A DNA stretch of 64,000 nucleotides from Tetradesmus obliquus (lineage: Eukaryota > Chlorophyta > Chlorophyceae > Sphaeropleales > Scenedesmaceae). The stretch is taken from the NCBI GenBank assembly GCA_030272155.1, contig CP126191.1:7710501-7774500 (forward strand). The letters are read 5' to 3'. Of the stretch, positions 816-59,469 are shown in pieces; the first letter of the stretch is position 1, and every line of letters begins with the position of its first letter. The notes beneath the pieces were generated by a model, which saw only the letters and a list, made by a program, of their open reading frames with translations, was not told the DNA's origin and searched no databases. Both the position numbers and the translations under genes were made by a program.

Positions 816-2753
816 CCACGTGCGTGTGCCTGCGAGCCAACTGCACGGCCTGTCACAGCCGCCAAGCAGACACTGTGCAACGAGGGTCGTGCATGGCGCA
901 TTGTTGGCGAAGTGTGCTTTGGCAGAAAGGGGTGTGTGGTGGCCCAGCACGCTTTGCCAGCCATGCACACATGTACATTACTGCCAGTGCAAGAGGGAAT
1001 TATGTAACACTATGTCACCCGGAATTCATGTTACACTCTGCCGGGTGCTAACTAGCAGGGTATGGCCTGGCAGCAACCTTGTTTGTTGTAAGCTGGGCTT
1101 TTGTATCAGATCATGACTGCTTGCCTGAGCAGTCAGCAAGGGTTGCGGCTGTTGCAGCTTCACACTGCCGAACTGCACATTGTGGGTGCACTGCGCAGCT
1201 GCAAGCATTACACGTGCATGTGCGCAGTGGCCGTTCTCCCGTTGCAGCAGTGTGCACCGCTCTCAATTGTCTGCTACGTGTGGGTTTTGAAGTGTAACAA
1301 ATCTGAAAGCAGGACATTATGACGCCCCATCTTGCTATGCCACTGTCTTTTGAATCTCAAACGCCTGGCAGGTACACGCATATGCAAATACACTGGGGTT
1401 TACAGGCTTTCAGGCCTGCAGCTGAGACACAAATGTGCGAAATTTGTGAGCTGGGGGAGCATCCTTGGCTGTGTCAGCCAGCCCTTCAGCTGGCATGTGA
1501 AGCGACTCTGCGCTGGCATGCACAACGCTGCAGTCCCACTTCTCACACGTAAGCCGCCTGCAGTAGCGCCAGTACTGGCTGCATGTAGATGCTTACCGTG
1601 CACCAGACAACGTTGGAATGTGCAACTGGGCCTGACGATCAGCAGCACACAGTGGCCAGAATAGCATGCCATTCACAAACCTTTGCAGGTGCCAGTCTGA
1701 GCACGACTGTGCCGCATAGAAATCGAGATAGAGGAGTTGCACGGTGTGTTCATGCGGCATACGCCACCACAGACACCTGGTAAAATGGGAAGCTGCAAGC
1801 AGCTCAGCTCGGGCTGTCACTCAGAGGTTCCACGCAGGACAACCTCTGTGTCTAAGGCATGACATTGATTATGCTAGCATAACCGCCTTCCTTACGACAC
1901 ACAAATTGGCTGCAATATGTCATCATTGGGCATGCAGTATTCCAAGCAGTGCTGGTGACAGCAATCTCTACGTCTTTTAGTGTAGATATGTAGAACCAGG
2001 CTGAACGTGCTTCGCTGACTCAGCAGAATGCTGAATCAGACGCCAAAACCGCATTTCTGCAAATGTGAGGAGTGTACTGGCTGTTGAGAGCACGGCATGC
2101 CATCAGCATAAAGCAAACGTGCACCGATCTCACTACTCAATCAACAGCCGGGCAACGTCACTGCCTCAGGCTGGCGGAATGCAAAGCAAGCACGCGATCA
2201 GGCACACATGTGGATAGCAGGTCAAGCAATCCGAGTCAGCATATTACCATGCTGTACAAGCCCCTGTCCAACGTTGCCTATGCTGATGTCACTCCGCTGC
2301 TGCTCTCTCAAAAAGCAGCTGCTGCAGCAGCTGATGCTCATCCCGGCGCTCGCCACTCACTTTCCAGCTGTGCTATGTGCAGCTGCTGCAACTGCTGACA
2401 GCACCCTCAAAGCTCACAAGTGCCACTCAGGATGCTCACCAAACTGCATCATGTCATATCTTTCTGCATCATGTATGGTCTGCGACATCATATACACATC
2501 ATATTCACAAGTACATGCAGCCCTGGAGACTGCCTGTGTGCCTGTGCCCGCTAGCACACAATTGTGCATGGCATCATCTGCAAATCACCCGTAAGCCATC
2601 GCCTTGAAACATCGTGTGACAAGCAACAAATGGCTGACGTGTGAGCAGTTGGGTCCTGTACCGACAGGGTACTCTAGCTGCAGCAGCAAAATCTGCTAGT
2701 GCATCCCAAAAGGCACCGACTGCCGCATAGTGTATTACAGTGGCTGACGTCTT
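816..2753. other. ATG3 3' UTR and convergent intergenic region
   Basis: ATG3 (+) and the RNA-ligase fusion gene (-) converge here. The stretch holds the probable ATG3 3' UTR and anonymous sequence. Frames are short and none resembles a known protein. A TTACA (TGTAA on the minus strand) at 2735-2739, just past the ligase stop, may be the poly(A) signal of that gene. Confidence 0.5.
1003..1007 (+). terminator. candidate TGTAA poly(A) signal of ATG3
   Basis: TGTAA lies about 190 nt after the ATG3 stop. UGUAA is the usual poly(A) signal in chlorophycean algae. The assignment rests on motif and position only. Confidence 0.4.
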
Positions 2754-5700
2754 TCATGGGCTGCCGTACCCTCTGTAGCTGTGATGAGAGTCAGAGCAGC
2801 CACCGTACTCATAGCGCGGCTCTGCCCAACGCGAGCCCCCCCCAAAGCTCCCCCTGTCCCCCCATTCCCTGCTCGCTGCTGCCTGCTTCTCTGCGTTTTC
2901 CCTGAGCCCTGGCTGCCCCTGCACCAGCTCACACCAGGCCCTGCACACCGCCAGTGCCCTGCCCACATCTTTACCCTGCAGCTTGCTCAGCACGGCCAGC
3001 AGCGCCTGGTCAGTCAGCTGCTGCATTATCAGCGGATGGGCAGCCTCGCAAGACACCCTGCAGTCTCCCTGAGGGCCGCGCGCCCAGCCTTTTGCATACG
3101 TTTGAGCGAAGGCAGGTGAGGGCGTGTAGCCAGGCAGGCTGCCATCCGTGCCAGGCCGTATGCACTCCAGGATGCGGCCACGCAGGGCAGGGGCTGGGCT
3201 CCTGCTGCTGCTGCTGCTGATGGTGTTTGACATGGACCCAGGGATGCTTATGTACCTGCAGCTGCTGCCAGTGTCCCTGAACATGCGAGTGACAGCAGCA
3301 GTGCCCCTGTCCACTGCATACCGTAGCGCTTCAGCAAACTGGGCGGTGTCAGCGTCAGGGGAGCCGCTGCTGCTGTCAAAGAAGCCACCACCGCTTATGC
3401 TGCTGCTGCTACTACTGCTGCTGCTGCTGCCGCCAACAGTGTCCCCAGTCCCTTCCTCACCCTGTGCTGCTGCCTGCGCAGGGCTAGCTTCTGTCTCGCC
3501 TGCAGGCGCGCATGCTGCAGCACTGCTGGTTGATGCCACCACAGCAGCGTGGTTGCCGCTGCTGCTGCTGCTGCTGCAAGCAGCTGTAGCTTGGATGCCG
3601 CTTGCGCTGGTGCCACTGTCGCTGAAGTTAGCGCCCAGCCAGGACCTCTGCAGCTGCTGCTGCAGCTGCTGCTGCACAGCCCAGAACTTCGTTTCTAGTG
3701 CTGTTAGTATGGCATCAACCTCTGCCGCAAAGTGTGCTGGCAGGCCCTCTGCCACCTGAGCACGGCTCTTGCCCCTGAACACTGCGTCCCATACTATCAG
3801 CGGGTGCAGCTGGTGCGCAGCAGCCTGGCCAGCACGCATAAACTGCTGCTGCACCAGCTTGCAGCGCTGCTGCTGGCTCTGCACCACCCATCCCTCAAAG
3901 TTGGAGCTGCTGCCACTGTCATCTGCACCCTTGCAGCCGCCAGTTGTCTGGTTCATGCTGCACTGCAACTCCCTGCCAGTGTCAGAGGCCCCTGACATCT
4001 TCAACATAACCTCAAGCAGGCTGCTCTTATGCGACGCAGTATGATCTGCAATGCTGCAACCCCTGCTCAGCCTTTGCAGTAGCTCCGGCAGCGAGCCTTC
4101 AATGCCTGGCACTGCCATGACGCCTAGCTGTGCTGCCAGCTGCTGCCGTGCAGCAGCATCAGGCAGCTCCTGGCCCTCAGGTGACACAGCACCAAGCAAG
4201 ACCAGCCCCTCAAAAGGATAGCGCACCACGTGCGTGTTGTGCTGGTAGACTGCCTCAAACATGTAGGTCCAGCCTGGCTGCATTGCGGCAAGGTTGCCGT
4301 GGCTGCGCAGCCACTCACGCGCCCAGAGTGCCTGCAGGAGCAGCAGCGGCGGCAGCAGCGGCTGTTGGACCCCCGGTATGCGACGGAGTGTGCCTGCAAG
4401 GCCTTGCACCCAGCTCAGGGTTGCTGTCTAGATAACACACTCGGCACGGGCAGTGCACATTTAGCCATGCCCGTTCTGTGCTATAACTCATAGTTACAAG
4501 TTACAAGTCCTACGCATCAGAAGCAGGCAAGCCTGCTTGAGCCTATGCTCTTCTGTGCGTAAATTAGAGAAGGACAAGGACAGGCCTGGGCCTGAGAGCT
4601 CTATCGTAAGAACTCATTCCCATCCTACTACGCTATGACTCATAGCCTATGAGTGAGGTTTGTGCGATGCCCACCCCCTGGCAGTCATCGTCATCGGATC
4701 ACCGTCTGGCATCGGACTGCCTTCAAGCAGCCGTCCTCGTACACGCAACAGCGCTGCATGCCGGCCCCGCTCCCCACGCCCACCTGCTCAGAGTCCATCC
4801 TCCTCCTGGTGGCCACCTGCAGCTGGCCCTGCCACAGGAAGGCCAGAACAAAAGAGCCATCCACCTTGACACTGGCAGACGCAATCGGGGCCTGCCCCCA
4901 GTGCTGGTATAGCTGCAGGCTGCCAGGCCCAGGCTCACTGGCCGCAACCTTTGCTAGCTGTCTGGTTGAAGGACCAGCGCTGCAGTCCCTGATCAGCAAC
5001 TGACCCCTGCCGCCTTTGTTATTGGCCCTGGCACCTCTGTTGCCGCCTGTGCTGCTGCTGCCGCTGCTGCAGCTGCTGCCTCCGCCTCCAGCTGCTGCGG
5101 CTGCCAAAGCACGACTCACGGCCGGCATTGACTGTGGCCCTCCAAAGCGTGCGAAGGGCGTGGCAACTACGCTGCTGCTGGCTGGGTGCAGCACCATCCC
5201 CCTGCACATAACAGCTGTGCTGCTGCTGAGTGGGCCGGTGCTCAGGTCATAGCAGAACACTTCCAAGCCGCTGTCAGGGTCTGTGGTTCTGTGCACTGTG
5301 CCAGCTGCAACCTCTGCCTGCACTGCAGCATACAGCTGACTATACGGCATGCTCCTAGCTGGGTGGACTGCAGCTTCTGTGCTGCTAGCAGTGCTGCTGC
5401 TGCCATCCTGGACTGCAGCAGCTGTGGTGATGAAGCTCTCCGCTTCCCAAACTGCCTGCACCAGCTGCTCAAGCGCTAGGGGTGCCTTGTCAGTTCCAGG
5501 CAGCCCCTGCTGCTCCAGCTGGGTACGCACAGTAGGGCTGTTGCCAGCTGACTTGTCCCAGCGCACTGACAGTGGCCGCCACAGACGAGAGTTACTGTTG
5601 AACGCATGTGCATAGGCGCGTTCTCTGTGCAATCTTTTCTTTTTTGCTGCCGCCAACCTGCCTGCTTGCTGGCTCTGCTGCTGCTCTGAATCATGTTCAG

Positions 5701-8406
5701 CACTTGGCAGCAGCTGGGAGCACTCGTAAACAAGGTTGTATGGCAGCTGCAGCACCAGCTGCTGCACAGCTTTCATCCTGTCTCTATCTGCTGCGCTCCA
5801 GTGTTGGTAGTCTGCTGCACGGTACCTCCTGTCAAACAGCCGCGCGAGCTCTTCGCCTGTGATGTCTGCAGCTGCCTGCTGCTGCGGCTGCCACTTGAGC
5901 AGCAGCTGGCTCATGCCCAGCACATACGGCATGGCAGCTGGCGTGAAGACCAGCCCATCTGTTGGGAAGGGGTAGGCTGCCGTAGAATCCTGCAGCTGAT
6001 GTAGAGCAGCTGCAGACACACTGTGGTGAGGCTTGAATAGCAGCGTGATGGCGTCACTGCCGGTGGGTGCTGCCTGCTGCTTGTTGGCCAGGATGAGTGG
6101 AGGGGTGCTGCTGCCACTGCTCCAGGCATCAGTAGTGGCAGCTGTAGGCTTGCTGTTGCCAGAAGCAGCAACAGCAGGTGCAGCAGTGGGAGTGGGCTGA
6201 CTGCTGCCTGCGCTAACGCAGGGTGCTGTGGTGTCACCACTGGCACTGCTGTTACCAGCAGTGAAGCTGTCGCGTGCTGCTGCAGCCTCGGGCAGTGCCA
6301 GCTGCTGCTGCATTGCTGCCAGCCGCTGCTGCAGTGGCAGCTGCCATACCCGGCTGCCTGCCACAGACAGCACATCAAACACCACAAAGTAGCCGCGCTT
6401 GCCGCCACCTGCACCAGTGCTGAGCCACAGCAGCTCACCATCAAGCACAGTGCCAGGCGGCACTGCAGCAGCAGAAGTCGCCAATGCAGCATCAGCAGCT
6501 GCAGCTGCACCCTGCCGCGGCGGCGGCAGGCTGCTGCAGATGCTTATGCTGACGGTGGAGCTTGCTGCAGCTGGTGCTGTGTTGTCGGCGGGGTCATCTG
6601 ATAGGCTGCAATGCTGCATCATGGCAGTGACACCTGCTGCAGCCTCCTGGCTGATGTTGATGTTGTCATTGCTGCCACTGCTGCTGCTGCTGCTTGAGGT
6701 GCAACCTTCACACCTATGCTTGGTGGTTTTAGCTTCTCCCTGCCCTGCTGCAGCTGCTACTGGGTATTTGTACATCATGCCAGCCCTGTTGAGCAGGTAG
6801 CAGCCGCTGTCTATTGCCACCAGCAGGTGCCGCGTGCCATCCAGCTTCAGTGACACACAGTAGCGGCCAGGCACAGCCAGCCAGTGGGCATCAGCTGCTG
6901 AGGTCGCTGCTGCTGTGGGCACAGGCATCAGGCCTGCAAAGCTGCTGCTGCTGCTGCCGCCGCCGCCGCCGTTGCTGCCACAGAGCAGGCCAGTGTAACA
7001 CGTGGCAGAGTGCACAACAGCGTCTCGCTCTGCTCTGCTGGTGACCAGGCGGCGAGACACCACAGGCTCGATGAGGGTGGCTGCAATGTTGACTGCATCC
7101 GAGCTGCGGCTTGATGGACGGGCAGCAGGGAATGCTCGAAGCCTGCGGGTGCTGCTGCAACACCAGCCCGCCTGTTGCAGCCACGTGCTGCTGCTGTTGC
7201 TGCTGCCAGCAGCACCTGCAGCATAGCCAATGGCAGCAATGCTGGGGCGCTGTTCACTAGCAGTTGCGCCAATTGAGCTGGCTGCTATCTCCACCAGCAC
7301 CCCCAGTGACGAAAAGAACTCGATCAGCTGGGCTGCGTTGTGCTGCCACTTGCGCTTCCGCTGCTCAACCAGTCGCTGCTTGTCACGCTCCTGCCAGGAC
7401 CAATTTGCGGCCTCAGACTGAGAGCTGTTCATCAGGTGCTGGCGCAGCTGTTTGGTGGTTGCTGTGTCATCTGATACGTACAGCACCTGCAGTAGTGTGG
7501 CGCAGGATTGACAAAGTGGGCAGCAGGAAGTTCAGGGCTGTTGCTATGCACTGCGCTTAGCCAGGGTTATAATGTTCAAAAGGAACGTGTGCAAGCCATG
7601 CTGAGCTGATGCTTGCACAAGGGGCACATGCATGGCAACATGCTACGGTTGGGGCAGTAATGTGTGTATGCGGCAGCTGCCAGGTGGAAGCCACAGGCAA
7701 CATCGTCCACAGTCCGTATCTGTTGGACTGTGCAGTCAAGAAACCAACTGAACCGGGTTGACTGGCAATACCAGATGAGTGTATTCCCTTCCATAGCAGC
7801 CGAGCAGTACAGTTAGGCTGATAATCCCGCACCTGCAGCAGTGGCAGGCTGTGCTGCTGCAGCACCTCCATCAGGACAAAGGCATCCTCCAGCTCCTTTA
7901 CACACTCCAACAGCAGCACCTGGGGCCATGCAACCCTGCAGCAGGACATCAATTCACATCAACAAGTTTAAGCTGTAGGCTCTTTGGCGTTGAGTGCTTG
8001 CATCCACAGCCACTGTAGCACATGATATAACAGTGCAACCAGAACTCACAACCTGCCCTCACACGTACATGTAACACGGGCAGCTTGCACCTAGTCACTA
8101 GAACTACATCACCTGCATGATTGGGCATAGTTGTTGGTGTACTCACCCAGTTATAACAGCAGCATCGCCTGCCACTGCCAGCTCCTGGCATGCAGCAGAC
8201 AGCATGCTGCGCGCCAGCTGCTGCAGCTCTGCCTTGCCTGCAGCAGTTGGATTCCTCAGGTACTTGTCCACCTTGCCAGCATCCCGCAGCTGCTGACCCA
8301 CATTTAGAAAGCTGTGAATAGTGGCCGAGTGTGTGGCGCAAAGGGCATTGCCCAGCACACTTTTGCCAGCCCCTGGGGCCCCAAGAAGCAGCACTGCACC
8401 CTTCAT
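2754..8406 (-). CDS. Fusion: AK-like P-loop domain + mRNA-capping-type guanylyltransferase + T4 Rnl1-type RNA ligase + F-box-like tail
   Basis: Exons 8147-8406, 7833-7935, 4784-7486 and 2754-4331 join in frame into about 1,547 residues. Residues 1-190 form an adenylate-kinase-like domain: Walker A GAPGAGKS at 9-16 and an AK-like C-terminal helix ending FFSSLGVLVEI. Residues about 330-770 carry every hallmark of an mRNA guanylyltransferase: motif I KLDGT (Lys335), III LDGELL (about 470), IIIa YFVVFDVLSV, IV DGLVF (631), V LLKW (652) and OB-fold motif VI RWDKSAGN (763). Residues about 870-1250 are a T4 Rnl1-type ligase: an upstream RGMVLHP segment, KVDGSF (Lys995), an ATRRRMDSEQ-ALWAREWL block joined exactly across an intron, the YMFEAVY element and EGWVVQ. 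Residues 1461-1500 resemble an F-box. Start: the first in-frame ATG, 27 bases before the Walker A codons; a short uORF lies just upstream. I infer a cytoplasmic or nuclear enzyme acting on RNA 5' ends. Linkers are Ser/Gln/Ala-rich. Domain calls are firm; biological role is inferred. Confidence 0.85.
4505..4640 (+). repeat. dispersed short repeat, family 1, copy A
   Basis: This lies in the last intron of the ligase fusion gene. It matches, in opposite orientation and with small indels, the stretch at 28467-28597. Shared blocks include GCAGGCAAGCCTGC, CTTCTGTGCGTAA, GAAGGACA, CAGGCCTG and GGGCCTGAG. The length suggests a SINE or MITE; I see no clear terminal repeats or target-site duplication. 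Confidence 0.7.
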
Positions 8407-35832: not shown

Positions 35833-38277
35833 CTAGCTGCTGCTGGCGTTCAGCTCAAACCACTGCCGCAGCAGGTCAGCCAGCGTGGCCGGCAGCGCGG
35901 CAATGTCCCGCAGCACGATGTAGTAGGGGAAGGGGAAGCTGTCCAGGTAGCGCTCAAACACAGGCTTGCCGCCCACAAACTTCACGCTCTGCATGTCCAG
36001 CAGCGACGAGCCCTTGCCAGCACCACCACCAGGCCTGCTGCTGCTGCTGCTGCTGCCGCCTGGCAAACCACTGCCTGGCTCACTGCTGCTGCCAGCTGCA
36101 CCACCAGCTGCAGCCGCATCACCAGCAGCAGCTGCAACAGTGTCCAGCGCAATGAACACCGGGCACACGCCCTGCACCTCCACCAGCCTCCGCACGGCTC
36201 CAAGCAGCGCCTCCTTTTCATGGAAGCGCCCATCCCCCAGCACCAGCAGCAGCTGCCGCAGATCACTGCTGCCGCCGCCCTGCGACCCCACCCGCTGCCG
36301 CGCCACCTCCAGCAGATGCGTCACCGCCTCCACCAGCTGCAACATCGGACGATCTGTGATCGTGTTATCCTGATCAAAGCGCAGCGCTGACATGATCCCA
36401 GGGCCAGCAGCATCAGAAAACGGCACCTCCAGCGGCTGCAGAGGCACCACGCCGCCGCTGCCGCCATAACTCACAACGCCTAACTCCCCAACTTCCAGCC
36501 TGCTCATCGCCTTGCACAGCAGCGCCAGCGCCTGCAGCGCAAAGGAGCCGGCGCCGTTCTCGCCCATACTGCGAGAGTCATCCACTGCCACCAGCACCTG
36601 GTAGCGCCGCTTGTCTGGCCTGCTCCGTCGCATCCAGATCTTGTCGCGACGGTACTGGCTGGCGATGTAGCCGATCACGCGCCGCATGCTGAGCCGCTTG
36701 CCGCTGCGGAACTCCCCGCCCAGCCGGCTGGCCAAGCTAGGCTCCAAAATCAGCCGCAGCTGCTCCGTGAGCTCGCCAGACAGGCCAGAGACGAGTGCAT
36801 CGCAATGCGACCAGATCTCGCGGCCGTAGCTTGCGGCAGAGTCGGAGCCGTCAGCAGCGGCAGCGGTGGCGGCTTGGCCGCCGGCGGCTGCGGCGGCTGC
36901 TGCGTCGCGGATGCGTGCATCGAGCTCGGCTCGCAGAGCTGCGGCCTGCTCGGGTGGCAGCTGAGTAGACAGCATGGCTGCCTGTTCGGCTTCCAGGCCT
37001 GCCCCTTGGTCTTCTGCTAGCTGCGTTGCTGCAAGCTTGGCAGCAACCAAGCTAGGCAGGCTGTCAGCATCCTCAGCAGCAGCAGGGCCGTCTGCAGCGC
37101 CGTCCAGCAGCTGCTGCCGCTGCTGTGCTGCTGCTTCTGCTGCTGCCTGCTCCTGCGCTGCCTGCTGCTGCTCGTCACTGGCGGCATCTCCAGCACCAGG
37201 CTTCTGCTGCTGCTGGTTGTCTTGCTGCTGCTGCTGCTGACCTGGCTTCTGCTGGCTGCCAGACCACACCTTGGGTGCTGCACCAGTCGCCACCTTCTCA
37301 TCTGGGCTGGCATCTGCCTCCTCTTCAGCTGCTGCTGCAGTCGCATCCATATCAGCAGCACCGGCATCCTCCTGGCCCTGCTGCTGCTCCTGCTGCTGCT
37401 GCTCGTCGCCCTTCCCCTGCTGCTGCTCCTGCATGGCTGCATCCTGCCCCTGCAGTGCTGCCTGCTCCTCAGTTGCAGGCGCCAGCGCCTGCGTAGTACC
37501 CTCCTGCTGCTGCTCATGCTGCCCTAGGAACTGATACTCATCCGCTGCTGGCGGCTGCTGCTGTGCAGCATCCGCATCTGCAGCAGCAGCAGCGTCGTCG
37601 GCCTGCTCCTGCTGTGCTGCCTCATGCTGCACTGCCAAGTCAGCCCTCCAGCGCTCCAAGGCATCCCCCAGGCTACGCAGCGGGTTCAAATCCGGCTGCT
37701 GCTGCTGCCGCTGCCGGCGCTGCTGCTGCCCAGCATCCTGCTGCTGCTGCTGCTGGGCGCCACCCTCTTGCTGCAGCGGCGCGATCTGGCCCTGCTCAGT
37801 TGCGCCTGCAGCACCCAGCTGCGCCTGCTGTGCTTGTTGTGAGGCATCCTGTGTGCGCTGATCCTCCCAGTCCATTGGCTGAGCAACCTCACCTTGCTGC
37901 TGCTGCTGCTGCTGCTCACCCTGCTGCTGCTCCTGCTGCTGCTGTGCATCAGCTGCGCCTTGCGCCTGGGCCTGGGGGGCAGCAGCAGCCGCTGCTACGC
38001 CCTGGGGGCCTGCCTCAGGGATCTGCTCAGGCTGCTGCTGCTCCTCATCACCTGCACCGTGTGCTGCAACTGCCTCTAGATCTTCATCCTCCTGAGGCTG
38101 ATCATCTTGCTGTTGTGGATCTTCCTGCTGCTCAGGTGGTGCTGCACGCTTCCTGCCATCAGCATCAGCATCAGCAGCATCCGCCTCATCCTGCTGCTGC
38201 TGCTGCTGGGCTGCTGCCGGTACATCAGGGCCGCCATCTTCACCATCTTCCTCCTGCTGCTCCTGCCCATCCTCACC

Positions 38278-38309
<32 letters not shown>

Positions 38310-38883
38310 CGGTGCCTTCCTGAGCAGCAGCATCCTCCCCATCCTCACCGCAGCCATCTGCAGCCTCCTGACCCTGCTGCTGCTGCTGCTGCTGCTCCTC
38401 ACCCTGCTGCTGCTGCTGCTGCTGGGCCTCATCAGCCTCAGGCCCCTGTGGCTCATCTTCCTCCATGCCATCCAGGTTCATGTCCTCAGGCAGAGCCAGC
38501 TCCTGATCGGCAGCCTCAGGAGCAAGCTTGTGCTGCTGCTGATAATCATCAGCCACATCAGGCGGCGGCTGGCCCTCCTCATCACCCTGCCCAGGCTGCT
38601 CCTGCTCCTCATCAGCATCAGAGTCATGCTGCTGCTGCTGCTGCTGCTGCTGTTGCTGCTGCTGGGACTTGTCGTCGGCGCCAGCCTGCGGCTTATCCTG
38701 CTGCTGCTGGTCGTCCTCGCCGCCGCCGGCATAGTCCAGGTTTGACTTGTCCTGCACTGACAGCTGCTGCTGCTGGTCCACGTCGTCCTGGCCCTGCTGC
38801 TGCTGCTGCTCCTGAGGGGGCTCCTCCTCGTCGTCACCCCACAGCCGCTCATCAACCCGCTCCTCATTCTCGCCAACCTGGAC

Positions 38884-38946
<63 letters not shown>

Positions 38947-41900
38947 AGCAGGGCAGCAGGGAGAGACAGGGGTTGTGAGATATACTGACAGAGATGCGTG
39001 GGCAGGATGGAATCATTGGGGTCAAGTGCACAAACTCAACAACAGCTGAAGGAAGAGCACAAGGAGTCACCAATACGTGTAGCTGATACATCTGTTGGAA
39101 AAAACGCTTGTCCCAAGTGGGTCTGCAACTACCCGCGTGCAAGCTACTGCACCTTTCACAAGCAGCTCTCTGTCAACAGCCCTGACACTCCCATACCCCT
39201 GGTCCCTGAGCCACATGGCCGCCTCACATCTCCCAAGCAACTGTAAGCATCCACTGCACCTCTCAAAAGCAACTCAAAGGCGCCGTGATTTCCACACCCC
39301 AAACCGCAACCAGACGCCTCACCTCGCCCATCTGCTGGTCGATCCTGTCATCATCTCCCTCCTCGTCTTCCTCCTCATCATCGCCCTGCTGCTGCTGCCG
39401 CCTGTCATCGACGTCATGCAGCGAGCCATCAAAGTCCCCATCCATCTCCACACCCTGCGCATCATCATCCTCAGGCTGCTGCGGCGGCTGCGGCTCCTCC
39501 TGCTGCTGCTGCTGGTCCTTCTGCTGCGCTCCCAGCAGCTGATCCTCATCATGGATCTGATCAGACACATCCTTCTTGCCTGTGCCTTCACCCATGCCTG
39601 TACCCCCTGCATCCTGCCACTGCAGCTCTCCCTCGCCTGTCCCCTCCTGGCCCTCACCCACAGCATCAGGCATGCAGTAGCCCTCAGCAGTGAGGCTGCA
39701 GAAGAGGCTGCTGCACACAAACGCCAGCTTCGCCAGCGACTTGTGCAGCAGCAGCAGCTGGCAGCTGCTGCGCTGCAGGCCGCCCAGCAGCAGCTGCAGC
39801 AGCGGCAGCAGCGCGGCCGCCTGCGACGCCATTGCTGCTGCTGCGGCTGCTGCTGTGCCTGGCGATGCATGGCTGGCATCGCTAGCCTGAGCCATCAGGG
39901 ACAGCAGAGTCCTGACAGATGCAGCGAGTTCTGCCAGCCTGGCTGGCTTGAAGGCTCCCAGCCATGCTGCAGCACCAACTGCTGCTGCTGCAGCCTCACC
40001 TGCAGGGCCCTGCTGGTCTGCATCTGCTGCTGCAGCTTGCTGCTGCTGTGAGCTGCTGCTGCTGCTGCTGTGCAGGGATTGTGCCGCCAGCAGCACCTGT
40101 GAGACCACCTCATCGAGGCAGCTGCTGAACTGCTGCTGGCACTGCTGCAGATCTGCCGCACCTGCTGCCTGCTGCTGCCTGCCAGCCTGCTGCTGCATGG
40201 ACGCTGCCTGCTCAGCAGCAGCAGCAAGGGCATCCAGCACACGGTCCCAGGCAGGCACCAGCCTGCACACCACAGCCCTGCTGCTGCTGCTGCTGCTGCT
40301 AACTTGCTCACCTCCTGCGGCTGCTGCAGCAGCGATAGCAGCTGTAGCTGCCTCTGCATCCCGCTGCAGCTGCTGCAGCTGCTCAAACGCAGCTGCTGCA
40401 ACTGCCAGCGCTGCATGGCTCACCACAGGGCATCCAGTCAAGCTCAGCCGGGCCAACTCAGCATCAACAGCAGCCCTATGGCAGTCAACAGCAGCAAGGT
40501 AGCTTGACAGCTTGCCTGCTGCTGCTGCACTCGCCTTCCACACATGCTGCGGCTGCCCGCTGCCTTGCTGCATGGGGAGTACGGCTGCAACCAGCTGCCG
40601 CGCAGCCGCCAGCTGGTACGACAAGCTGCAGAGCTGCTGCCGCGCAGCAGACAGCATGCTGCGAGCCGCCTCCTGTCGCGGCAGCAGCGCAGCCGCATCA
40701 CCGCAGTAGACTGCAGTTTCCTGCAGCCAGCGCACTGCCTGCAGCAGCTGCGTGTAGCTGCCTGCCACGTCACCTAGCAGCAGCCGCTGCTGCCGCAGCA
40801 GGTGCAGCTGGTGCTGGCTGTAGTGCAGCACAGCCGACACCTCGTGCCGTGCCAGGTCAGCATGTGGCGCCTTTGCTGCTGCCTGCAGGCGCTGCAGGCG
40901 CGCCAGGGACTTGAAGTAGTAGCTGTCTGCCTTGCCCCAACACACACCAGCCAGCTGCAGCAGCGCCGAATCCACTGCTGCTGCAGGGCCAGCTTGCTGC
41001 AGCGGCTGCAGCAGCGGAGAAGACGCCAAGCACGGCTGGCGTTGACCAAACCACGCGGCCGCATCCCTGTCTCCAGCTGGCACGTCAGAAGCACGCTTGG
41101 AGAAGCCGGCGTCACCTAGCGCATGCAGCAGGTCCGTGAGGGCCTTCTTCTTGCGCAGGCGGGCTCCCTTTGCAGTGTCAGTGGACAGCGCAAGCGCGCG
41201 AGATGCTGCTGTGGCTGCCAGGTCATCAAGCTGCAGCGCCGGCAGCGCTGCAATCAGCTGATCCTCAAGCTGCTGCTGCTGGGTGCTGCTTGTGCTGCCA
41301 TCTTCTGCTGCAGGAGTTGCTGCTGCTGCTGCTGGTGGTGGCGGCAGTGCAGGTGGTGCAAGCACACGCGCCATCCTTGCTGCAAGCTTTGGCAAGCGCC
41401 CTGCATAGCTGCTGCTGGTTGCAGGAATGCCGGCAGGATCGCTGCTGCTGTCGTGTGCTGCCTGCAGTACTGCTGCGCTGAAAGCGGCCCAAGCAGGCTG
41501 CTCCTGCGGCTGCAGCTGCTGCAGTGCCTCCAGCAGAGGTGCTGCCAGCACATCCACCTGAGCAGCTGCTGCTGCTGCTGCCTTCCTGCCTCGCTTGCCC
41601 CGGCCATGCTTGCCTGATGCTGCTGCTGCTGTGATGGCTGCAGCGCCTGCTGCTTGCCAGCCGCCTGCTGCTAGTGCAGCAGCAGCAAAGCAGTCCAGGC
41701 TGCTTGAGAAGGCAGCTGCATTGCCAGCAGCAGCAGCAGCCTGCGCCAGGTCAGATGCATCTAGCTCTGCCAGCAGTGCTGGGTCTACCTGCGCTGCAGC
41801 AGCTGCTGCTGCAGCAATCGCATCGCGCTCCTTCTGCTGCTTCTGATCCGGTGTCGCCTCAGCAGCAGCAGGACCACCAGCTGCAGCCTCACCACTCCCT

Positions 41901-42283
41901 GTCTCACCAGCTGCTGCTGCTGATGCTGCAGCTGCCTTTGCAGCCTTGCCAGCTGCCCTGCCTGCTGCTGCTGCAGCTGCCAGCGCTGCCTTGGGTGCTG
42001 TCACCTGCCCCAAGCCCATTGCCTGACTAGCACCTGCCAGCACACCCGCTGCAGGCTGTTTCAGGTAGTCTTCTGCTCTCCTTGATAGCCTGTGCAGCTG
42101 CCGCTGTGCCTTCTCTGTTGACACCTTCATGGCATAGTAGCCCCTGTCCTCCCATTTTGCCAGCTTGACAAAGTCTGCCAGCTCTTTAGAGAGAGGGCCT
42201 AGCCCGGCATCAATGGCAGCTGACACAGCTGGCAGGAACTGCGTGTAATACGACAGCACATTCCACAGCATGGACGCCACCTG

Positions 42284-42324
<41 letters not shown>

Positions 42325-42512
42325 CATTTGTGACTTCTGCCCCTGCTGCAGTAACTGTCAGCTGGCAGGCAAAGCTCTGCAGCAGCTGCAGCCGCGCAGC
42401 GTACTCGCCAACCGTAGACGTCTGCACAAACGCCTCCACAAGCGACGCAGTGCGCCGGTACGCAGCATCCGGCGCTGCTGCTGCATCCTCACCATCTGCT
42501 GCAGCCGCACCC

Positions 42513-42559
<47 letters not shown>

Positions 42560-43191
42560 ACCTTCCCCAGTGCCTAGCACCAGCACTTGATACAGGTGGT
42601 ACCAGCTCCTGCTGGCGCCCCCAGCATGCCGCGCCCTCACTCGCTCCAGCAGCCCCTTCCAGCTAGCAAGCTCCAGCTTCCTCCAGCGCGTAGCCAGGCC
42701 GGCCACTACTGCTAGCTGCTGCTTAAGACTCACATGCTTGGCTGCAGTCTCCTCCCAGACCTGTGCACGCGCCAGCAGCAGCTCTAGGCCTGTCAGGGCT
42801 TGCTTCAGAGGCACAGTTAGGGGCAGGCCTAGCAGCCGTTCCACAATTGCCAGCAGCTGCAGCAGCAGCGGGTGCTCCGGCCACTCCTCAAGCAGCTGGA
42901 TCAGCCGCTGTGACATGTCAGACAGCGGCTGCTGCATTAGGAAGGCCTCCTCTGGGAACGCCTGCTGCATGTCCAGCTGCTGCTGCTGCTGCTGGCCGGC
43001 GGCTGCTGCTGCAGTGGCTGCTGCGCTGGTGTTTAGTGCTGCGTGCTGCAGCGCCAGAGCCATGAGGCTTCCTGGTAGGGTGAGGCTGTCGACAGCAGCA
43101 GGCAGCAGCCCCTGCTGCGCTGCCAGCAGCTGCTGGCCCAAGCTGAAGCACATCTTGAAAGCCTTCTCCCGCGCTGCATCATCAACTGCCA

Positions 43192-43225
<34 letters not shown>

Positions 43226-46200
43226 GTCGGTGAGTACAGCTGGCCCATTCGCTGCTCCAGCTGCTGCTGCTGCCGGTGCTGCTGCCAGCTGGTGTGTGAG
43301 GCGGTGTGTTGCCAGTGCTCCAAACAGCTGGCCATGCAGCGACACCACATCAGACAGCAGCTGACCCTCTAGCAGCGACTTGGCAGCAGCAGACTTGGCC
43401 TGCGCTGCAGTGGCTGCTGCTGCTGCTGCATCGCCGTCCTCAGCCCCATCAGCTGCCAGCTGGTCCAGGTCCATGATGTCGTGCTGCTGCTGCTGCTGCT
43501 GCTGCTGCAGGTGGGCATCGGGGTCCTCTGCCAGCTCATCGGGTGGGGCCAGATCAGCAAAGGCAGCATAGTGGTCAGGGAAGGCAGCCTTGTAGTCAGC
43601 CTCCGCCTCCTCCTGCAATGGCAGCAATAGTTGCAGGCAGCAGCAGCGTGAGTCAGAAGCAGCCAAGTACAGCAGCACTGCAGCAATATGGTTCTGCATA
43701 GTGGTCCGGGAAGGCAGCCTTGTAGTCAGCCTCTGCCTCCTCCTGCAATGGCAGTGGCAGCAGGCGGCAGCAGGGAAATTAAGAAGCAGCCAAACACCAC
43801 AGCAATTGGTGCAACAATGCTGTGTGGTGGTCAGCGAAGGCAGCCTTGTAGTCAGCCTCCGCCTCCTCCTGCAATGACAGCAGCAGGCCGAGTCAGAAGC
43901 AGCCATCCTGCAGTACTGGAGCACTGTGGTACTGTACGGCGCGGTGTGGCGTGGTTCCTACAATATGAGTAGCTGAAGTTGGGCACGAACAAAAGATTGG
44001 ATGCTGGCTGTGGTCTGTCTCAGCTCCCTGATAGCAGCCGCAGACCGCGCACCCCCTCTCACAACAGCACCCCTGTTTCAGAGTAAACAAAAACCGGCAA
44101 TTGCAGTTGATCATACATATATAATCGAGTTCGCCTCACCTCCTCGTTCATGAAGGTGGAGCTGTGCGTCTTGTGCTTGAAGAGCTGCGCAGCCTCCTCA
44201 GCAGCAGCAGCCTCGTACGCACGCACCGCCTGCCACACAGACAGCACCTGCTGCAGCATGCTGTCAATGCCACCCAAACCTGCTGCACCACTGCTGTTGG
44301 ATGAAAGATCAGATGCAGCAGCAGCAGCAGCAGGGCCAGCAGCCAGCCGCTCCTGTACTGCCACCACAAGCGCAGCATGCACCGTGCGCAGCTGCCAGCC
44401 AAAGTCAGCCAGCTCAGCTGAGGATGCTGCTGCTGCTGCCGAGCGCGGCTGCAGCAGCTGCTGCTGCTGCGCCTGCTGCACTGCAGCACCTGTCAGCTTC
44501 TGCCAGCGTGGCTCAGCCAGCAAGCTGGCAGGCAGCACATTCACAGCCGCACCCCTGCTGCTGCTGCTGCTAATGCACAGCTGCCCCGCAGTGACGCCTG
44601 CCAGTGGAGGCGGGAAACACAGCAAGCCAGCAGTCAGTGCCATCAGCTGCCCAGCGCCGCTGCCGCTGCCATCTGCTGCTGCTGCTGCTGCCGCCTGCTG
44701 TGCTGCCTGGCTAGCAGCAGCCAGCAGGGAGAGGCCATGCCGGGCCTCCAGCAGCGACAGCAGCACCGGCTGCAGCACATCGATGTAATCAGGGAAGCTG
44801 CCGCGCATTCTGTTTGACCACGCTGCTGCACTGCCATCCCACATCTCCGCCTCCCGCACTGCCGAACTCCCTGCAGCTGCTGCTGCATTGCCGCCATCAG
44901 CTGCAGTGCAGCTCTGCAGCAGCGTCTTGCCGAGTGTGGTGAGCCTCTGGGGGTCAGCCAGGCCCCTGCTGAATCCAGCAACCTCCTGCTGCAGGTGCAG
45001 GTACTGCGGCGGAGTCGGCCGCGGCACACACCTAGCCCTCAGCTTCTGCAGCTGCGCAGTGAGTCCGTCGTGCTGCTGACTCAGCACTTGTAAGGATGCT
45101 GACTCATCAGGCCCGCCAGGCAGCTGCTGCATCATCGAATGCACTGCAATGGCCGGCTCTAGCTGTGTGCTGATCCAGGCCTGCATGGCAGCAGCCTTGA
45201 AGCCGTACCTGCCAGCTGGGTCCACCCCAGGGGGTGGGGCTACCAGCTGCAGCCTTGCACAGCCTAGCAGCAGCCAGGCCCAGCCCTGAAACCCCAGCAG
45301 CTGGTACCACTGCTGCTGCTGCTGCTGCTGTGTGCTGCTGTTACGCAGCAAGATGGCTTCTGCGCATGGCAGCAGCAGCGGTTGCGCTACAGCTGCGAGA
45401 GTGCTGTGGCTGCTGCGGCTGAGTAGGGCTGACAGCTGCTGCAGCCAGGGGCTGACTGCGTCATGCTGTAACACAGTGCTGCTGCTGCTGCACCACGCCA
45501 GTAGCTGCTGCACAAGCTGCTGTAAAGCAGCAGCATCTTCGCTGCTGCTGAAGCTGCTGACATGAGCTAGCAGCAGCTGCCCTAGCAGCAGACCCAGAAC
45601 CTGCTGCTGCTGCTGGCTGCTGCTGCTGTCCTGCGGCTGCTGCAGCAGCAGCTGCTGAGCTGCCAGGCTCAGCTGCTGCAGGCGCGCTGCCTTGCTGCTG
45701 CCGTCAGCAGCACCAGCAGCGCAGATCTGCAGCACAGCAGCAGTGCGCGACGCCAGATGCAGGCACAGCGGACTCCCTGTCACTCTAGCAGGCACCCCCA
45801 GCCCCCGCATGAACCCAAACAGTGCTGATGCGTCACTGCTGCTGAGACCTGAACCCTGCTGCTGTTGCAACTGGTCTGCTGAACCGCTGCCGCTGCCCCC
45901 TGCCCACAGCCCTGACTGCCAGCTGTACAAGGCATCATGCAGTAGGCCTGGCAGCACCTGCTGCAGCAGCTGCTGCTGCGGCAGGGCCTGTCGCTCATCA
46001 AGCATACTGCTGATCAGCCAAGACAGCTGCTGCAGCGGCACCAGCGCAGCAGCGCTGCGCTGGCAGCAGGCAGCGCCAGATGTAGCCAGGTACTGCTGCA
46101 GCTGGCCTTGCAGCTGCTGCAGCTGCTGCTTTGGCAGCACTGGCAGCACCAGCTGCTGCTGTGCTGCATCTCCAAGCTTGCTGGTGGTAGTAGCTTTGGC

Positions 46201-46562
46201 AGCAGCAGCAGCAGCAGACAGCAGCCATGTCAGCGCTGCTGCTGCCAGGCTACTTTCCTCTTCAAGAGCAGCAGTGTGCAGCAGCTGCTGCAGATCAACT
46301 TGCATCCGCCGCGCTGCTTCCGACACCATTGCCTTTGCTGGCAGCAGCTGCACACCACTGCTGCTGCTGCTGCTGCTGCCGGCTAGGCCGGCCTTGGCCT
46401 GCTGCTTCAGCGCTGCCACCAGCGCTGCTGCACCTGCTGCCTCATGCTGCTGCTGCTGCGGTGCTGACAGCAGCTGTATCAGCAGCGGCTGCAGCAGCGA
46501 GGCAACTTGCTGCTGCAGCACCTCTGGTACTGCTGCAAGCGACTCAGCAGCTGCCGCCACAC

Positions 46563-46597
<35 letters not shown>

Positions 46598-49500
46598 AAG
46601 AGCTGCATGTGTGGCAGGAAGCCCAGCATAGCCAGGCCCTGAGTCAAGCCCTGCCTGAGGCCCGCATCACAGCACAGCACAGCTGCTGCTGCAGCCGCCA
46701 GCCGCTCCCTCAACTCAGCGCCAGCGCCAGTGCCGAGCTCTAAACCCTCGAGCACTGCAGCAACATCGTTAAACCCTGCGGCGGATCCTTCACCATCTCC
46801 ATCCATCGCATGTGCATTGATGTGCTGCTGCTGCAGCCGGTACTGCTGTAGCTGATCCTGCACAGTCTGCACTGCCTGCTGCAGCAGCTGCTGCCAATCC
46901 ACTCCTGCAGCAATCAGCCCTGCCGGCTGGCCCCGCGCATCAACCCTAAAACCTGCACCGCCCTGAACCGCCAAGGCATCTGCAAGCGCAGCTGCCTGCT
47001 GCTGCGCTGCCAGCAGCTGCCTGTTTGGTGGCAGCTGCGGGTGTCCTGCAAGGCGCCACATCAGCGGCTTGGGTGCTGATGCATCCAACTGCAGAGCTGC
47101 TGCCATCTGCTGCTGCAGGAACTGCCAGCGGGATGCTGACTCAGCACCCCCTGCCAGCTCAGCACAGCAGCTGGTCAACAGCCGGTCAACGGCCTTTGCC
47201 AGCTGGGACCACGCCCAAGCCAGCTGCTCGGGCTGCACTGCTGTCACTACTGCTGCAGCAGATGGGGCCGCAGGATGCTGTGGGGTGCTGCTGTAGTGCA
47301 AATGCAGCGGGCCATGCACAGCATCCCACACGCTGCTGCGTGCCAGCTGCAGGCGGTGAATCTGCGCTGCTAGCTGCCCTGCCTGACCACTGCTGCTGCT
47401 GCTGCTGCTGCTGTGGCATATGTGCTGCAGCAGCTGCTGCAGAGCAGCGCCCTCAAATGCGGCCACTGATGCTAGGCAGGGCTGCAAGCCATCCACTGCT
47501 GGGTGTGAGGCTTCACTCCTTGCCCTCTCTGCTGGCCTGTTTGACCGCCAGACAGACTCCTGGTACGGGCTGGCAGCACCTGCAGCCACTGCTGCTGCTG
47601 AAACTGCACCAGCTGCTGCTGCAACTGCAGCATGGCACGATGCCTGCTGCAGCAGAGGCAGCAGCAGCGCCAGCTGCTGCTGTGGCTGGTGCTCCTGCTG
47701 CAGCAGCTGCTGCAGGTTGCTGCTCCAGGGCTGCTGAGCTACTGTTGGCAGCAGCTGCTGCAGCAGCTGTGACAGTGCTAAGCTGCGGCTGCACTTGCTG
47801 CCAGCAGCAGCCGCCGCTGCTGCAACCTGCAGTAGCTGCTGCTGCAGCCACTGCTGCCGCAGAGTGCTGCTGTGCTGTCCTGCTGTTGCAGTGAACAAGC
47901 AGGCTGTTGCGGCTGTGACGCTCATCTCCGGCAGCAGCAGCAGTGCGCTGCTGCTGCTGGTGCAGCTGTTGTGCTGCTGCTGCTGATGCTCGCCTAGCGC
48001 AGCTGCTAGCAGCTCCACAGGCAGCAGCGCCTGCTGCCCTGCAGGCAGCTGCTGCAGCAGCTGGCGAGCTGCAACAAGACCGGCGCTGCTGCTGCTGCTG
48101 CTGCTGTCGCCTGACCCTGCTGCTGCTGCCAGCTCGGCCGCCAAGGCTTGTGCCAGCAGCCACACCGGCAGCGACGCATCGCGTGCAACTGCTGCCATGG
48201 CCGACTGCTCTGCTAGGTCAGTCACACCAACCCACACAGGCCACTGGCAGGGCCTCAGCAGCTGGTTGGGCCACACTGCCAGGGTTTGGCCCCCCTGCTG
48301 CTGCTGCTTTCGGTCAAGCATGTCTGCATCACCATCGTCTGCAGGTACCGCATCTGCCGCAGCTCCTGGCAGTATAACGTCTTGCTGTACCGCCTCTGGT
48401 GGCGGCTGCAGCTGCAGCAGCTCACACAGCTCAACAAAAGCCGCCTGGCCCTCAGCCGCCAGCACAGGCGTTGCTGCAAACCCTCTTACATAGGCTTGGC
48501 TCCAACCCCTGCTCAATGCAGCAGCGCAGCACTGCCCCTGCTGTAGCAATACCGCAGCAGTGGCTGCCCAGCTGCGGGCCTCCCGCATACCGGGGGCCCT
48601 GCGGTGTGCTGCTGCGCATGCTGCTGCCATGCGGGTGTGTGCTGCTGCCATGGCTGCTAGTGTAGGGGAGCTGGCCACGCCGCTGCTGGCGAGTAGGGTC
48701 TCTAGGTCAGGCTGGCCTGATAGGGCCCAGCTGGGCAGTGAGGTGCAGGGCTGGGGGCCTGCAGGAAGCAGGAGAGAGCCCTGCAAGCAGACAAGTACCC
48801 AGCAGCAGCAGTATCAGCATTAGCAATTAGTCATTAATCAGACCAAGCAGCAACAAAAACGGGAGAAGTGGACGCGACAAGCTGCGCCAAAAAACAGGCA
48901 GTAAGTAGACGCATGTGCGCAGGCCTCAAAACAAACTTGCATGGACCGACACCAGCATGAATTGACAGCCGCAAATCCATCACAACACGGTGCCCTGGCA
49001 GTGGCTGCGCATCAGTATCAAAGTTTTTGGTATAAGTGTTTGCCCACATGGTGTGTTCGAGCAAAGGTGTTGAGCTCATCCTTTGCAGCAGCCGGCCAGG
49101 ACACCCCACACCCATCATACAACACAACACAGCCCCTGTTCAGCACACTCTCACACACAAACAACACACACCATACATATACAGCACCACCCATCCTGTT
49201 TACGCCATCATGCTCCTCACCTCTTGCTGCTCTTCTGTTGCACCCTTGCCTGCTCCAGCAAGCGCCCTGCTGCTGCTGCTGCCGGCAGCAGCAGGCAGCA
49301 GGTACAGTTCCACCCCTCTGTTCCTCATGGCCCTTGACACCTCACCATGCTTCGGATCATACGCCAGCATCAGCCGGAAGTTTTTGTGTGGCACCACCAC
49401 CCTCCCACCCCCTGAGCCGCCACCCCCTGCCTCATCTAACTGCAGCACCCCGTGTGGCTCTAGCAGCCCATTTAGCCTATCCAATACAGTGGGGTTGACC

Positions 49501-52900: not shown

Positions 52901-53280
52901 TGCAGTGCTGGAAGGGAGCAACACCTCTCAACCGCCAGTAATGGTAGTTTGCGTGTGTAACTTTCCAACGCATACACATTACAGAGCCAGCCAACCAGCC
53001 AGCACCGTAGCCTGGCCGGCCACACAATGCCAGCAACAGCAGACCCCACGCCCAACAAACACGCTTGCTGCTTGTACCCGCACAAACACAGCCGCCCTGC
53101 CCCCTGGGCCCGCACCTGTGTGAACCTGTTGCTGAGTGCCGGGCTGAGCTCCTTCTTGCCAAAGTCGCCCCCGGGGTTCATGGTGCCCAGCACCTGGAAG
53201 CCCGCAGCGCCAACCACCAGCTCAGCGCCGCCGCCGCCCTTCTCAGCCAGCGTGAGGCTGCGGCCTGGCTCCAGCACACT

Positions 53281-59300: not shown

Positions 59301-59436
59301 GCGCTTCTTGGTAGGTTTGCTTCCTGCTGCAGCTGCTGCAGCCTTGCCCTTACTGCCTGCCTTGCCGCGCCCGCCCCCACCAGCTGCATCTGCAGGCACA
59401 ACATCAGCTGCGCCATCTGCCATGTGTGTGTCGCCG

Positions 59437-59469
<33 letters not shown>

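Follow-up and report, generated by a model that had tools for sequence, protein, structure and literature searches.

A predicted adenylate-kinase-like kinase, capping guanylyltransferase and T4 Rnl1-type RNA ligase in one chain of the green alga Tetradesmus obliquus

Results

Three enzyme modules in one predicted protein

We analysed a 64,000-nucleotide stretch of the genome of the green alga Tetradesmus obliquus (GenBank assembly GCA_030272155.1, contig CP126191.1, positions 7,710,501 to 7,774,500 of the forward strand; hereafter the window), in which a four-exon gene on the minus strand is predicted to join an adenylate-kinase-like P-loop kinase, an mRNA capping guanylyltransferase and an RNA ligase of the T4 Rnl1 type in one polypeptide. 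Tentatively, we read the protein as a single-chain RNA 5'-end-processing enzyme, in which a recapping module like that of the trypanosome protein TbCe1 would be combined with a diverged Rnl1 module for sealing or end binding. The gene and its third exon lie at these window positions:

2754..8406, minus strand: whole gene, four exons (8406-8147, 7935-7833, 7486-4784 and 4331-2754, including the stop codon), 1547 residues
4784..7486, minus strand: exon 3, 901 codons (residues 122-1022), an open frame without interruption

Within exon 3 lie the C-terminal portion of the kinase, the complete guanylyltransferase and the N-terminal half of the ligase with its motif I (KVDGSF). Because all three modules reach into this uninterrupted exon, the predicted fusion is independent of the splice model, and because homology also crosses the introns, a reading as separate neighbouring genes was rejected: the kinase homology (residues 5-191) spans introns 1 and 2, while the ligase homology spans intron 3, where the junction of exons 3 and 4 (SEQ/ALW) aligns without a gap to phage ligases (for example, SEQAIHA). 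All three introns have GT..AG borders, and the spliced translation places the starts of GAPGAGKS, KLDGT, LDGEL, DGLVF, LLLKW, RWDKSAGN and KVDGSF at residues 9, 335, 469, 631, 649, 763 and 995, respectively, in agreement with the coordinates, strand, motifs and nucleophile positions (K335 and K995) given in an initial annotation of this DNA. The coding frame of the spliced sequence holds a single, terminal stop, as against 30-62 stops in each of the remaining five frames, and the longest open stretch runs to 946 codons, where none of 200 mononucleotide shuffles of the region exceeded 327. When the alga's own genome (104,662,953 bases in 17 contigs) was searched with exon 3, one place out of the 16 candidates scored reached E<=0.1, and a second copy was not found. 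The initial annotation had also placed three modules in one spliced frame, and this agrees with our results: separate family models match each of them, none failed to match in the domain profile searches it had suggested, and shuffle controls accompany the kinase and the ligase.

The kinase and guanylyltransferase modules

The two N-terminal modules and their key residues are placed as follows:

7265..8406, minus strand: adenylate-kinase-like P-loop kinase, residues 1-195, in exons 1 and 2 and the start of exon 3, by match to the adk profile
8382-8359, minus strand: P-loop GAPGAGKS, from the spliced translation
5480..7087, minus strand: mRNA capping guanylyltransferase, residues 255-790, PF01331, with motifs LDGEL, VFDVL, DGLVF, LLLKWQ and RWDKSAGN
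6847-6845, minus strand: guanylyltransferase nucleophile K335, in motif I KLDGTR

The kinase region matches the NCBIfam adk profile TIGR01351 at residues 5-191 (E 7.8e-7, 28.9 bits) and, under the cut-off, PF00406 (ADK) at residues 7-182 (E 0.007; 16.9 bits against 26.8), and its exon 3 part alone (exon residues 23-70) aligns to positions 150-197 of the adk model (E 0.17). In shuffles that kept the P-loop by holding the first 36 residues fixed, none of nine gave an adk match at E<=0.01, and three of the nine gave other matches at E 0.002-0.006 (nucleotide kinase family, MobH and proteasome ATPase); matches at that level mean little here, and the adk match at 7.8e-7 is well beyond it. A search of the alga's genome with the kinase found just weak places outside the gene (E 0.43 or worse). 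Adenylate kinases phosphorylate a phosphate, as a kinase converting 5'-monophosphate RNA (pRNA) to 5'-diphosphate RNA (ppRNA) would.

The guanylyltransferase region matches PF01331 across three stretches (E 1e-15, 58.5 bits, passing the cut-off of 29.6), together with three PDB chains of capping enzymes, presumably all fungal, at E 3.8e-7 (3kyh), 1.5e-6 (1p16) and up to 9.8e-5; in an exon-by-exon PF01331 search of the genome, the window match alone scored 25.2 bits (E 6.9e-4), under the cut-off. Capping enzymes share the consensus motifs KxDGxR (I), DGE (III), FD.L (IIIa), DGL (IV) and RxDK...N (VI), for which this protein has KLDGTR, LDGEL, VFDVL, DGLVF and RWDKSAGN, along with the first lysine of motif V. 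Where a full capping motif set had been claimed initially, motifs I, III, IIIa, IV and VI therefore stand, whereas motif V ends in KWQ and the usual C-terminal domain, PF03919, was not detected in pieces of the window. A diverged OB fold may take the place of PF03919. In the segment separating motif V from motif VI, the expected site of an OB domain, a weak TCL1_MTCP1 match (window 5450-5932, minus strand, translation residues 35-63; E 6.6e-4, below cut-off) is probably due to chance, and DNA-ligase matches of the guanylyltransferase exon (PF01068, E 0.067; the non-homologous end-joining ligase model TIGR02779, E 0.0077) were set aside as reflecting the shared nucleotidyltransferase fold. Long low-complexity inserts are seen in the translation within both nucleotidyl transferase domains.

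The ligase module

The third module occupies the following positions:

3630..5350, minus strand: T4 Rnl1-type RNA ligase, residues 834-1256, crossing intron 3, with K995, E1048, E1168 and K1180
4867-4865, minus strand: ligase nucleophile K995, in motif KVDGSF

The family assignment is carried by a match to phrog_562 ('RNA ligase and tail fiber protein attachment catalyst'; E 4.8e-23) and by an 85-member Rnl1 profile, against which the algal piece scored 118.5 bits and 2000 shuffles scored at most 3.1. The profile was built from T4 RnlA, four actinophage ligases and 80 kept viral-contig loci, whose proteins were translated starting at locus base 1501 and ending at the first stop, with approximate starts, and at least one of which (L030) is perhaps cut short by a stop inside its match. 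Aligned identity is 18% to T4 RnlA and 23-28% to the four actinophage ligases. In a tblastn search against phages, 54 records passed E<=0.01, the strongest at E 3e-6, with the best 20 of the 54 all annotated as RNA ligase, and the best 20 blastp rows were a mixture of viral-contig, bacterial and phage ligases with 22-43% identity over 82-260 residues. A profile of an alignment of the algal piece with five phage ligases, T4 among them (alignment A3), matched T4 Rnl1 and tRNA ligases in the PDB (9qw7, E 1.1e-6; 6n0v, 0.0057; 6n67, 0.0067), matches that we attribute mainly to the phage rows. In the alga's own genome, the ligase piece and phrog_562 match this gene alone among the best candidates scored, while a genome search with the PF09511 profile, which gave no match, carries no weight, since its control was silent too.

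We then compared the active site with that of 165 relatives (the 85 profile members plus 80 kept bacterial loci, with no row dropped). The alga keeps T4 Rnl1 residues K99, D101, G102, E159, E227, G228, K240, R54 and Y37, with K995, D997, G998, E1048, E1168, K1180 and R883 as the counterparts of K99, D101, G102, E159, E227, K240 and R54, respectively. Of the Rnl1 landmarks noted initially, the family match and the K995 motif were borne out, whereas several active-site residues turned out to be replaced, as detailed in the Discussion.

Other capping and RNA-joining genes in the genome

Two further genes elsewhere in the genome bear on the role of the window protein:

contig 1, 1785500-1793500: second capping gene (locus L013), on the same contig as the window gene, with motifs and Pfam matches in separate short open frames
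contig 3, 2117634-2121371: RtcB-type RNA ligase gene, six exon matches, from an own-genome search

The PF01331 search of the genome returned at least four exon matches, one in the window and three within 2 kb of each other (contig 1, 1.787-1.789 Mb). L013 carries the cysteine-phosphatase motif HCTHGFNRSG followed by WKADGTRY, ESDGLI, LLKWKF and RDRPDKLTANH, and hmmscan gave DSPc (E 4.9e-4, below cut-off), PF01331 (E 8.6e-11 and 2.4e-6) and PF03919 (E 5.4e-13). We read this gene as a plant-type triphosphatase-guanylyltransferase; a fused enzyme of this kind is reported in green algae (PMC2904801). Because L013 carries the phosphatase, KWK and PF03919, ordinary capping would have its own enzyme in this alga, and the window protein is predicted to be a second capping-type enzyme, with a kinase present and a triphosphatase not found: Pfam scans of its pieces gave no phosphatase or CPD family at E<=1. 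An own-genome search for CPD carries no weight, its control being silent. The alga also appears to have another RNA-joining enzyme of a different kind, the RtcB-type ligase.

Comparison with known systems

Kinase-guanylyltransferase chains and kinase-ligase chains are both known kinds. In TbCe1, the kinase is N-terminal and has a P-loop, and the window protein has the same layout of kinase (adk match) and guanylyltransferase (PF01331 match), with no triphosphatase in the scans. TbCe1 is reported to combine an RNA kinase with a guanylyltransferase and to convert pRNA to capped RNA (GpppRNA) in the cytoplasm, beside a nuclear capping set (PMC11417388). Like TbCe1 and TbG5-IP, the algal protein would thus hold kinase and guanylyltransferase in one chain in a cell with a separate ordinary capping enzyme, and its catalytic lysine lies at a similar place, K335 compared to the K288 reported for TbCe1 (PMC11417388). 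The parallel with TbCe1 drawn in the initial annotation fits by activities and by the second capping enzyme, as a likeness drawn from the published description of TbCe1. In the algal chain, unlike in TbCe1, these modules are followed by a ligase of the Rnl1 type and then by an F-box-like tail. Trypanosome mRNA is reported to carry cap 4 (PMC11417388); cap-0 is reported for mRNA of a green alga, Selenastrum sp. (PMC11923408).

With the T4 RNA ligase 1 family (RnlA, gp63), the algal module has the core catalytic residues in common, but it is part of a eukaryotic multidomain protein and has long inserts between motifs. The baculovirus AcNPV has an Rnl1-type ligase fused with end-healing kinase/phosphatase domains, which is not known to include a capping domain and whose kinase is a different one. 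A K103A mutant of AcNPV Rnl1 is named in the literature (PMC3514331). Like the algal protein, fungal Trl1 (LIG-KIN-CPD) unites a kinase with a nucleotidyltransferase-superfamily ligase in one chain (PMC6592678), whereas the alga has the order kinase-guanylyltransferase-ligase, an adenylate-kinase-like kinase and a capping domain, and a CPD was not found in it. The plant/metazoan-type capping enzyme shares PF01331 with the window gene, but the gene of that type in this genome has HCTHGFNRSG, KWK and PF03919, none of which was found in the window gene, where there is a kinase instead. RNA ligases are reported to have been widely passed between prokaryotes and microbial eukaryotes and to be linked to RNA damage in conflicts (PMC11258130). 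The three-part fusion was found in this genome, the one eukaryotic genome searched, and no described protein of this composition was among the matches listed from titles and abstract openings of the open-licence literature.

Tail, gene end and neighbouring genes

Two features lie at the 3' end of the gene:

2913..3020, minus strand: F-box-like stretch, about residues 1460-1495, PF12937 (E 1.1e-4); coordinates derived by hand
2735..2739, minus strand: TGTAA, 14 bases after the stop codon, counted by hand; weak evidence

The F-box-like tail of the initial annotation thus has a profile match, at a score of 22.3 bits below the PF12937 cut-off of 24.3, and PF00646 likewise falls short (E 0.011; 16.1 bits against 20.5), so that an F-box-like tail is possible, not established. 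The TGTAA after the stop codon resembles what we take to be the green-algal polyadenylation signal. A sigma-70-type promoter scan was near chance, and such a model has no meaning for an alga.

Elsewhere in the window, also on the minus strand, parts of a giant AAA protein resembling midasin (MDN1) lie at 50249-51502, 52110-53177, 58518-59675 and 60458-62023, with AAA_5, AAA_lid_7 and MDN1_4th matches. Adjoining them, at 35839-48813 (minus strand), are three open frames of 1058, 1563 and 1583 residues, counted from stop to stop, with no Pfam match at E<=0.001.

Discussion

If the window protein is a single-chain RNA 5'-end-processing enzyme, as we tentatively propose from its sequence, its kinase would convert pRNA to ppRNA in the manner of TbCe1, and K335 would transfer guanosine monophosphate (GMP) to the ppRNA to give GpppRNA, apart from the cell's ordinary triphosphatase-guanylyltransferase. 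With less confidence, we suggest that the ligase, through K995, would act on the same 5'-monophosphate ends and rejoin broken RNAs if a 3'-OH partner were at hand; pRNA would thus be offered two fates by one chain, a new cap or resealing.

Several results weigh against this proposal. By the standard of the curated adk cut-off (168 bits, against the 28.9 obtained), the kinase is remotely related to adenylate kinases without counting as one, and its single-sequence PDB search reached a best E of 0.27, with adenylate kinases next at 0.29. In the guanylyltransferase, motif V reads LLLKWQP where 3kyh and 1p16 have KWKP, and the window pieces did not match PF03919 at E<=1. For the ligase, PF09511 did not match the spliced piece at E<=1, and the single sequence matched no PDB chain at E<=1. 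In viral contigs, no relative of the fusion was found among 43 pattern-matching stretches for exon 3 or among 10 for part of exon 4. The active site of the ligase has R901 in place of T4 K75, T1055 for R166, V1182 for K242 and F1186 for Y246, while G120 and S121 are both replaced by arginine. The T4 residue is kept in all 165 relatives at K75 and G120, in 164 at K242 and Y246, and in 163 at R166 and S121, counts that are to be read with the search patterns in mind, since the viral patterns cover the regions of motif I and G120-S121, and the bacterial ones those of motif I and K75-N78, with K242, R166 and Y246 outside all of them; K75 is lysine in 85 of the 85 viral-contig and phage rows, which were not selected on it. 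The counterpart of T4 N78 depends on the alignment (N944 or G904), and this position was not used; the change from F77 to G903 is likewise alignment-dependent. The ligase may accordingly work slowly, be limited to one step or another, or serve chiefly to bind ends, and the recap-or-rejoin decision point suggested in the initial annotation, in particular, appears weakened by the ligase substitutions together with the undetected C-terminal capping domain.

The same replacements at near-invariant positions, along with the KWQ of motif V, the undetected PF03919, the low-complexity inserts in both nucleotidyl transferase domains and the F-box-like stretch, would also fit a degenerate ligase, and perhaps a degenerate guanylyltransferase, in a chain that serves mainly as a binder or sensor of RNA 5' ends, with the tail leading to a ubiquitin ligase or other partners, a possibility that we regard as real but somewhat unlikely. 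Both nucleophilic lysines, E1048, E1168, LDGEL and RWDK..N are, however, kept, which would be unexpected after long decay, and natural archaeal ligases are reported with T (MthRnl) or V (PAB1020) at the second motif V position (PMC3514331), the one at which the alga has V1182.

Repair in the style of T4 Pnkp/Rnl1 or of Trl1, in which 5'-OH ends phosphorylated by the kinase would pass to the ligase and unsealable ends would be capped by the guanylyltransferase, is in our view unlikely. Trl1, with ligase, kinase and CPD in one chain (PMC6592678), and the reported joint repair of cleaved tRNA by T4 Pnkp and Rnl1 (PMC3400036) offer precedents. In phage Seahorse, moreover, the ligase gene adjoins a polynucleotide kinase gene. 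The algal kinase, however, resembles adenylate kinases, which act on a phosphate, and, since the Pfam scans gave no CPD or phosphatase at E<=1, a further enzyme would have to deal with 2',3'-cyclic phosphate ends.

Returning to the 5'-end-processing enzyme that we favour, a bolder form of it would have one eukaryotic enzyme decide the fate of the 5'-monophosphate ends of decapped or cleaved RNA, by capping or by a rewired ligase that seals them or handles pre-activated ends, with the F-box-like tail coupling this to protein turnover; we hold this extended version to be quite unlikely.

It is improbable that the ligase is a step-3 enzyme, joining pre-adenylylated 5' ends and using adenosine triphosphate (ATP) poorly after loss of the second motif V lysine. 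T4 K242, the lysine replaced by V1182, is nearly invariant in the relatives, as given above. Most ligases are said to require both lysines of the KxK motif V; MthRnl mutants in the motif I lysine (K97A) or in the first motif V lysine (K246A, K246Q) are described as still sealing pre-adenylated donors but as weakened in the ATP-dependent steps, and such donors are also joined with a truncated T4 Rnl2 carrying K227Q, which is less active (PMC3514331). Yet MthRnl and PAB1020 naturally lack the second lysine, MthRnl self-adenylylates from ATP despite its T at that position, and the closest precedent tested there for loss of the second lysine, K227Q, is in an Rnl2 and not an Rnl1 (PMC3514331). In the alga, K995 and K1180 are intact. 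We also know of no source of 5'-adenylylated RNA (AppRNA) in this alga, which counts against such a role.

A gene-model artefact, in which two or three adjacent genes were taken for a single one, is the least probable explanation. A 452-base intron 3 with the donor GTGGGC and a model drawn from genomic sequence alone might suggest it, but it appears largely refuted by the open exon 3, whose 901 codons hold parts of all three modules, and homology runs across introns 1, 2 and 3.

In mammals, a pRNA kinase is reported to belong to a complex (PMC4138027), and in trypanosomes, cytoplasmic recapping is described as defined by one chain with kinase and guanylyltransferase (PMC11417388). If an alga has a protein with both of these modules, the one-chain solution to recapping would exist far from trypanosomes, and the attached ligase raises the question of whether recapping or resealing of a broken mRNA is chosen within one enzyme. 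If the bolder form of our proposal is true, this would be the first described 'recap or rejoin' enzyme, and TbCe1-like recapping would extend to the green lineage.

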